Assembly (NCBI RefSeq): GCF_030655195.1
Contig: NZ_JAURWA010000092.1
Coordinates: 1-50,068, forward strand
Source: Patulibacter sp.
GTDB taxonomy: Bacteria; Actinomycetota; Thermoleophilia; Solirubrobacterales; Solirubrobacteraceae
Direction of reading: 5' to 3'
Length of the DNA: 50,068 nucleotides
Under the pieces are notes generated by a model. It was not told where the DNA came from. It saw nothing but the letters and a program-made list of their open reading frames with translations, and ran no database searches. Made by a program: the position numbers and the translations under genes. Below, in pieces: positions 21,264 through 25,725 of this stretch; the first letter of the stretch is position 1; every line of letters starts with the position of its first letter.

Positions 21264-21407
21264 CGAACGTCCAGCCGGGCGATCCGAGGCGTCGCGTCTC
21301 GCTTTCGTGTTGGCCCGTTTCGGTCAACGTGGTGTCCGAAAGCTAAGGACTTCGGCCGATTTCGGCCATTCGCCGGAACGCCGGCGGACCTGCCCGGCGG
21401 CATCCGT

Positions 21408-21413
21408 CACTAT
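21408..21413 (+). promoter_or_regulatory. Weak -10 candidate (CACTAT) for the structured RNA
   Basis: CACTAT lies just before the 12-pair hairpin that starts at 21417. No -35 is visible and the implied start near 21420 falls inside the stem, so this is only one possibility. Confidence 0.2.
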
Positions 21414-21533
21414 GTCCCTGTCCGAGCCGATCCTGGTGCGGCTGGACGGGACAACACGGTGCAGTGCCCGGGACGGCGCTGCACCACATAGGGACGGGCG
21501 ATTCGTCGCCCCGACCACCACACACACGCACGG

Positions 21534-21565
21534 ATGACCCCGAGGAGCTCGCTCCTCGGGGTCAT
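21534..21565. terminator. Strong bidirectional-type terminator between convergent units
   Basis: A perfect 15-base-pair stem ATGACCCCGAGGAGC / GCTCCTCGGGGTCAT with loop TC, followed on the plus strand by TTGTCG. It lies 26 bases beyond the stop of the minus-strand dehydrogenase gene and can serve both strands. Confidence 0.85.
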
Positions 21566-21591
21566 TTGTCGTCCGGCCGGAGCCCGTCTGC

Positions 21592-25574: not shown

Positions 25575-25580
25575 TACTGT
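25575..25580 (+). promoter_or_regulatory. -10 box (TACTGT) of the riboswitch transcript
   Basis: TACTGT places the transcription start near 25587, exactly where the conserved 5' part of the riboswitch (GCCGAA) begins. Confidence 0.6.
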
Positions 25581-25583
25581 CCG

Positions 25584-25712
25584 CGCAGCCGAATCGCCGG
25601 GATCTATTCCGGTGGGCGGGGGAACCACGTGTTCTTGGGGCTTGTTCGCCGGATTCCGGCGGAAGCGCGACTCTTTCTGCGCTAGCCCGTCAGCTAACCC
25701 CGTAGGCCGACG
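25584..25712 (+). promoter_or_regulatory. c-di-AMP riboswitch (ydaO-yuaA class)
   Basis: Conserved blocks appear in the right order: GCCGAAT (25588-25594), GGGGGAACCA (25618-25627), TGGGGC (25636-25641), an inner hairpin GCCGG-ATT-CCGGC (25648-25660), and CCCGTCAGCTAACC (25686-25699) followed by CCGTAGGC. These are the invariant elements of the ydaO leader, whose two-site pocket binds cyclic di-AMP. In actinobacteria it typically precedes NlpC/P60 or resuscitation-promoting-factor genes and lowers expression when c-di-AMP is high. The cell-wall hydrolase start follows 14 bases later. No diadenylate cyclase gene lies in the window. Confidence 0.9.
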
Positions 25713-25725
25713 AAAGAGAGCAGCA

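Follow-up and report, generated by a model that had tools for sequence, protein, structure and literature searches.

A candidate multi-copy small RNA family of Patulibacter with two exposed CGGGAC motifs

On sequence evidence, the hairpin region between a pterin dehydratase gene and a convergent 3-hydroxyacyl-CoA dehydrogenase gene of a Patulibacter genome belongs to a family of small RNAs that this genus carries in multiple copies. The evidence consists of conservation, covarying pairs in hairpin P2, a preferred strand, the number of copies, their independence from the genes around them, and constant motifs that are predicted to be exposed. The window, by which we mean the whole stretch of DNA that was analysed (50,068 nucleotides), holds a syntenic, long-form member of about 150 nt at approximately 21420-21569, and the status of 21420-21569 on the plus strand as an RNA gene is well supported. 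We read this RNA as a multi-copy "sibling" small RNA (sRNA) that acts in trans, independently of Hfq, by pairing with mRNAs via two CGGGAC motifs, a reading to which we assign a probability of about 0.6; both the expression of the RNA and its base pairing with mRNAs are steps that we infer. The family looks new, and its regulatory role is putative; Rfam at gathering scores returned no family in the interval, the 6S RNA and the CsrB/RsmXYZ clan included.

Architecture and Folding of the RNA

The elements of the RNA follow one another in the order P1 (with a CCUGG loop), an exposed CGGGACAAC linker, P2 (with a constant CGGGAC loop) and P3, after which a CA-rich linker leads to the terminator hairpin. 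The locus in the window comprises the following features:

21285..21311, plus strand: terminator-like hairpin (21285-21301) and its T-rich tail, directly past the dehydratase stop
21318..21341, no strand assigned: imperfect palindrome TTTCGGTCAACGTGGTGTCCGAAA, upstream of the RNA gene
21408..21413, plus strand: -10-like hexamer CACTAT, non-canonical, where scattered copies have TACGGT
21420..21569, plus strand: small RNA gene, with its probable start at G21420 and its end at the terminator tail
21420..21447, plus strand: hairpin P1, nine pairs and one bulged G, the loop holding UCCUGG (21431-21436)
21444..21455, plus strand: constant 12-mer GGACGGGACAAC, made up of the P1 3' strand and the exposed linker with the first CGGGAC
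21458..21485, plus strand: hairpin P2, 11 pairs, whose constant loop CGGGAC (21469-21474) is the second CGGGAC motif
21496..21511, plus strand: hairpin P3 with UUCG loop, long form only
21514..21529, plus strand: CA-rich single-stranded linker ACCACCACACACACGC
21530..21569, plus strand: terminator hairpin with short U-rich tail, 18 pairs in the predicted fold

The original prediction had drawn seven consecutive hairpins by hand over 21301-21567. Four of these form the conserved RNA, whereas the remaining three, given without coordinates, must fall in 21301-21416, where the alignment of the seven syntenic copies, judged by eye, shows little conservation. An RNA beginning at 21301 is unsupported; conservation is poor over 21301-21400, and this part precedes the probable start. 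The 11-pair stem at 21458-21485 and the UUCG hairpin at 21496-21511 are present exactly as drawn. The proposed stem of 12 pairs at 21417-21450 is possible as well, but the conserved RNA includes only its inner nine pairs and the bulged G (21420-21447); its outer three pairs precede the probable start and are disrupted in the syntenic copy from genome G006 and, on inspection by eye, in all eight scattered ones. There is also a terminator stem at 21534-21565, although with a four-base loop it has 14 pairs rather than the 15 that had been counted, and the predicted fold lengthens it to 18 pairs (21530-21569) by drawing on part of the short T-rich tail.

The expectation that the region is structured beyond chance held. 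The 337-nt interval has a folding energy of -182 kcal/mol (z = -5.37) with none of 100 shuffles as stable, and the presumed 150-nt transcript of the window gives z = -5.74 with none of 200 shuffles as stable. The minus strand of the interval is nearly as stable (z = -5.19), and folding energy alone therefore cannot assign the strand. Each of the 15 presumed transcripts, which measure 112-160 nt, beats all of its 200 shuffles (z between -3.0 and -6.8). A 3' terminal hairpin appears in the predicted folds of all 15 copies; a hairpin of varying sequence at the P3 position is predicted in the eight long-form copies and in L034, and is absent from the six short copies.

Covariation and Strand

Covariation was assessed in two alignments, A3, made with MAFFT (nine rows), and A5 (14 rows), which is fitted to the model and for this reason leans toward the structure. 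A5 was derived from A4 (17 rows) by removal of L034, L026 and a minus-strand match of 19 bits in L023. In A3, 96.6% of the cells pair, and in 8 of 20 pairs both sides have changed; none of 500 shuffles attains even one of the five measures. Slid controls drop to 24-51% paired. A5 shows changes on both sides in 12 of 20 pairs (44 cells), with four measures attained by none of 500 shuffles and one by a single shuffle in 500. These counts are of sequences, not of events. P2 carries most of the covariation (8 of its 11 pairs changed on both sides in A5). For P1 the figure is 4 of 9 pairs, with one pair failing in 6 of 13 rows; the seven syntenic copies all have the same P1 sequence, so that only the scattered ones contribute to the covariation of P1. 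Covariation is hence present and conservation extends beyond the terminator, two of the points on which the original prediction had declared itself refutable.

The stem cells of A5 comprise 247 Watson-Crick pairs, 14 G-U, no A-C and 14 others, and this wobble asymmetry points to the plus strand as the one transcribed. A closing helix, TATGT/ACATA (21411-21415 with 21486-21490), had seemed conserved. It was dropped by judgement, because the -10-like box covers part of its 5' strand and because, by eye, the short copies offer it nothing to pair with.

Copies and Distribution

A covariance model of P1 and P2 built from nine aligned copies (R1) found 15 copies in seven of eight Patulibacter genomes, seven syntenic and eight scattered. 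Five copies lie in G003, four in G001, two in G000 and one each in G002, G004, G005 and G006, with none in G007; G001, G003 and G000 thus each hold more than one homologous copy, as is expected of sibling sRNAs. L034 is the weakest copy (35 bits) and was accepted on its P1, 12-mer, CA linker and terminator; it was left out of A5 and of a second covariance model, R2, built from 14 copies. No copy was detected in G007 (82% complete), where the dehydrogenase was not found either (best 38% identity); its contig C1045 has the 12-mer GGACGGGACAAC but gives no model match.

A search at the DNA level over 61 genomes returned matches at E of about 1e-27 or below (weakest 1.7e-27) in seven genomes, all of them Patulibacter and the window's included, with shorter matches elsewhere in some of those genomes. 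G007, from the genus, and G027, from the family, gave only short matches (E near 5e-4). With the models, searched over sets of more than 40 genomes under filters that are stricter and miss some of the weak matches, R1 added one match over 146 family genomes (32 bits, inside a coding frame) and nothing beyond the genus over 299 class genomes, and R2 added three matches outside the genus over 232 order genomes (29-32 bits), two of them within one shared coding frame and the third without the core motif. At the outgroup dehydrogenase loci L098-L100 there was no model match. A pattern scan of named genome contigs returned 21 stretches. Eleven are from Patulibacter, namely P. minatonensis (four), P. 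americanus, P. medicamentivorans, Patulibacter sp. NTP18 and one MAG (four), and all of these score at least 47 bits; the other ten score at most 29.7. Neither the family, class and order model searches nor the pattern scan produced a convincing copy beyond Patulibacter.

Several candidate members were rejected. L026 (G145) and L106 (G136) both lie in the same coding frame, which in L026 carries ATP-grasp_2 and Ligase_CoA domains, as succinyl-CoA synthetase beta does. The resemblance of P1 and its linker (window 21424-21455) to a coding stretch (VVRLDGTN) at L026 1501-1566, which the model scores at 32 bits, is taken as chance. L107 (G388, 29.3 bits) is without the motif GGACGGGACA, and L046, from Actinomadura, reaches from the tail of one frame into the beginning of a second (by eye). 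The other nine pattern matches outside Patulibacter score at most 18.6 bits, or give nothing at E up to 1.

Promoter, Terminator and Upstream Palindrome

Transcription would run rightwards from about 21420 and end at the RNA's own terminator. A TANNNT -10 box lies 6-7 nt before P1 in seven of the eight scattered copies and in none of the seven syntenic ones, compared with 0.14% of random positions; the eighth scattered copy, L033, has TGCGGT at this position. Under a looser test (A at position 2 and T at position 6), 13 of 15 copies have the box, vs 3.2% by chance. The window copy has the non-canonical -10 sequence CACTAT and no recognisable -35 element, and a consensus scan of the window found no sigma-70 promoter at this -10-like box. 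The start at G21420 was therefore placed by position, from the promoter box of the scattered copies. Siblings under differing promoters would raise the dose of the RNA or answer differing signals.

A terminator scan did not call the terminator of the window RNA (21530-21569), the tail of which is short. The scan yielded one terminator-like site, the hairpin at 21285-21301, vs 0.1 expected in shuffles, and this hairpin may part the dehydratase transcript from the RNA gene.

Between the terminator-like hairpin and the RNA lie the palindrome halves TTTCGGTCA..TGTCCGAAA (21318-21341). The palindrome is alike in five of the seven syntenic copies, where it is followed by TAAG, half-kept in G004 and not evident in G006 (all by eye). 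A strict pattern occurs at 14 sites in the eight genomes, three at syntenic loci (3 of 7) and 11 elsewhere, vs one site in each of three genomes for the reversed-pattern controls. These counts were used to evaluate the palindrome as a genome-wide operator, and a regulon could not be demonstrated. It is perhaps a binding site or operator for a regulator, and may mark a regulated upstream promoter.

Constant Motifs and Their Exposure

The motif GGACGGGACA is present in all 15 copies and the 12-mer GGACGGGACAAC in 14, as is the P2-loop motif CCCGGGACGG, which is missing in L034, the copy without the P2 CGGGAC loop. All 15 copies also have CCTGG in the P1 region and a CA-rich linker with CACAC..GC. 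The mean unpaired probability is 0.69 for the P1 loop (0.20 in L034), 0.77 for the CGGGAC linker over 15 copies, 0.97 for the P2 loop (14 copies) and 0.80 for the CA linker, compared with an overall background of 0.29-0.41; a conserved, accessible motif is thus common to the siblings. The exposed CGGGAC motifs, in the linker and in the P2 loop, would pair in trans with mRNAs without Hfq, and the UCCUGG loop of P1 or the CA-rich linker perhaps also pairs with mRNAs.

The 12-mer is largely confined to the family, with 14 of its 15 occurrences in the eight genomes falling within these RNAs. Its exact complement is found at 15 places across the genus, which are 14 of the RNA genes themselves and one chance site, and so yields no target. 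When one mismatch is allowed, the CA-linker complement occurs at ten places, eight of them RNA genes and the others in G006:C350 and G003:C2, against three for the reversed control; the sites outside RNA genes are no more than in that control, and no target emerged here either.

Surroundings of the Scattered Copies

In G003, three copies adjoin paralogous small cysteine-containing genes (DPDxYDDFL... or SDALDSFL...), at L057 5317-5505 (plus strand), L058 5852-6130 (minus strand) and L059 996-1184 (minus strand). The paralogues have no Pfam match, and a TACNNT box directly ahead of each of their starts suggests that they may be leaderless. At L058 4399-9193 the genes for a CoiA-like nuclease and an HNH_2 endonuclease flank one RNA copy, and their proximity suggests that the region is mobile. 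At L061 (5702-5983 and 6076-6143), a copy in P. minatonensis comes after a gene of the ParE_toxin family (40.4 bits vs 23).

Discussion

A constant exposed sequence on covarying stems fits pairing sRNAs and protein-binding RNAs alike. It is possible, though we consider it clearly less probable than mRNA pairing, that the RNA is a decoy or scaffold which titrates an RNA-binding protein other than CsrA via its CGGGAC motifs, in the manner of CsrB/RsmZ. Such a role would agree with two exposed copies of one hexamer in each RNA, with a P2 loop that stays constant in 14 of 15 copies while the stems change and with genes in multiple copies, like those of the CsrB siblings; however, two motifs are few for a sponge, the protein partner is hypothetical, and CsrA is an unlikely candidate, exceeding the cut-off in only four of the eight genomes searched (G001, G002, G003 and G005). 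CsrA was not found in the RNA-bearing G000, G004 and G006, the window's genome (94.9% complete) among them; membership of CsrB/RsmXYZ would need it as the partner protein. None of the eight Patulibacter genomes has an Hfq over the cut-off, the one match below it (22.3 bits) being in G003. Since no Hfq exceeded the cut-off and CsrA was found in four of eight genomes, not including the window's, we favour an Hfq-independent pairing sRNA and place the protein decoy second. A wider proposal, which we regard as doubtful, is that the RNA forms the RNA arm of a post-transcriptional system, in which, in bacteria that lack a recognisable Hfq and in many cases CsrA, the tandem display of CGGGAC would bind a putative protein and extra copies on mobile DNA would tune a host network.

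The remaining explanations concern whether there is a separate RNA gene at all. By tblastn, the convergent dehydrogenase adjoins the RNA in all seven syntenic copies and the pterin dehydratase lies upstream in six, the exception being G004, whose 3.2-kb locus has no dehydratase. The stretches of 5.8-14 kb around the eight scattered copies contain no dehydratase by tblastn and, at a single locus, one distant relative of the dehydrogenase (37% identity). That the RNA is a structured 3' UTR of the dehydratase transcript, an alternative that the original prediction had offered, or of the dehydrogenase transcript would accord with its place between both genes in six of seven syntenic copies. This reading is nevertheless very unlikely, as nine of 15 copies have no dehydratase nearby, the scattered copies have no close dehydrogenase, the terminator-like hairpin at 21285-21301 stands ahead of the RNA, and the wobble pairs oppose the dehydrogenase strand. 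Still less likely is structured mobile DNA, a recombination site or the end of an element, that is not expressed as RNA. The scatter of the copies and, in G003, the three beside paralogous cysteine genes, one of which is also near CoiA-like and HNH genes, are what such DNA might leave behind, but the asymmetry of G-U over A-C suggests selection on one transcribed strand, promoter boxes lie at a fixed distance, each of seven genomes holds one syntenic copy, and viral contigs gave no exact pattern match. We give least credence to a small protein encoded by the 41-residue frame that runs from ATG 21412 through the core. The frame is open in the window; yet single-base indels shift it in G002, G004 and G003:C145, the ATG is lacking in G006 (though an in-frame GTG persists), the stem changes are compensatory, and ATG 21412 precedes the presumed RNA start. 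The independent small RNA that had been proposed is supported, in contrast, by a conserved covarying core, scattered copies without a common upstream gene, a terminal hairpin, the -10 boxes of the scattered copies and the separate terminator-like hairpin at 21285-21301.

In open-library searches, the coverage of which leaves most subscription papers outside, no paper combined Patulibacter with "small RNA" or Thermoleophilia with "sRNA"; the present family would thus be an early example of a defined sRNA family in Thermoleophilia. It is present in the named strains P. minatonensis DSM 18081, P. americanus DSM 16676 and P. medicamentivorans I11, offers testable motifs and natural siblings for the design of mutants, and raises the question of how sRNAs act in actinobacteria in which no Hfq is detected.

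Comparison with Known RNAs

An Rfam scan of the whole window found only a c-di-AMP riboswitch and tRNA, neither of them at the RNA locus. The riboswitch (RF00379) lies at 25577-25723 on the plus strand (67.2 bits). NlpC/P60-type hydrolases are the usual neighbours of this riboswitch, and the frame behind it has only a sub-threshold NlpC/P60 match (16.5 bits vs 23).

Among known families, the best match at a loose threshold is ftsZ-DE (RF02985), which has a similar succession of a hairpin, a CCACCACA-like linker and a terminator; at 27.1 bits vs a gathering score of 72.2, and spanning only P3 to the terminator, this match reflects a general layout. CsrB/RsmZ-type RNAs are alike in their repeated exposed GGA-containing motifs and in having siblings, the CsrB siblings being described as multi-copy genes (PMC6262261). 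They differ in score (18.1 bits vs 52 for RsmW), in the number of motifs, here only two, and in their CsrA partner, which was not found in the window's genome.

Two sibling sRNA systems provide functional parallels. The NmsR RNAs of Neisseria are sibling sRNAs with a common pairing sequence (PMC5362039). They use anti-Shine-Dalgarno sequences and have mapped targets, whereas the Patulibacter RNA has CGGGAC and CA-rich motifs and putative targets. FopS is a set of paralogous sRNAs of Bacteroides, scattered and multi-copy, with a conserved unpaired motif, their own promoters and Rho-independent terminators, and help from phages in their spread has been suggested by its authors (PMC11697453). FopS belongs to another phylum, and a sequence relation to the Patulibacter RNA is not known; FopS consists of a single-stranded 5' stretch and a terminator, whereas the Patulibacter RNA has two conserved hairpins ahead of its terminator. 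What the two have in common is their occurrence in multiple copies at scattered places and the possession of a conserved unpaired motif.
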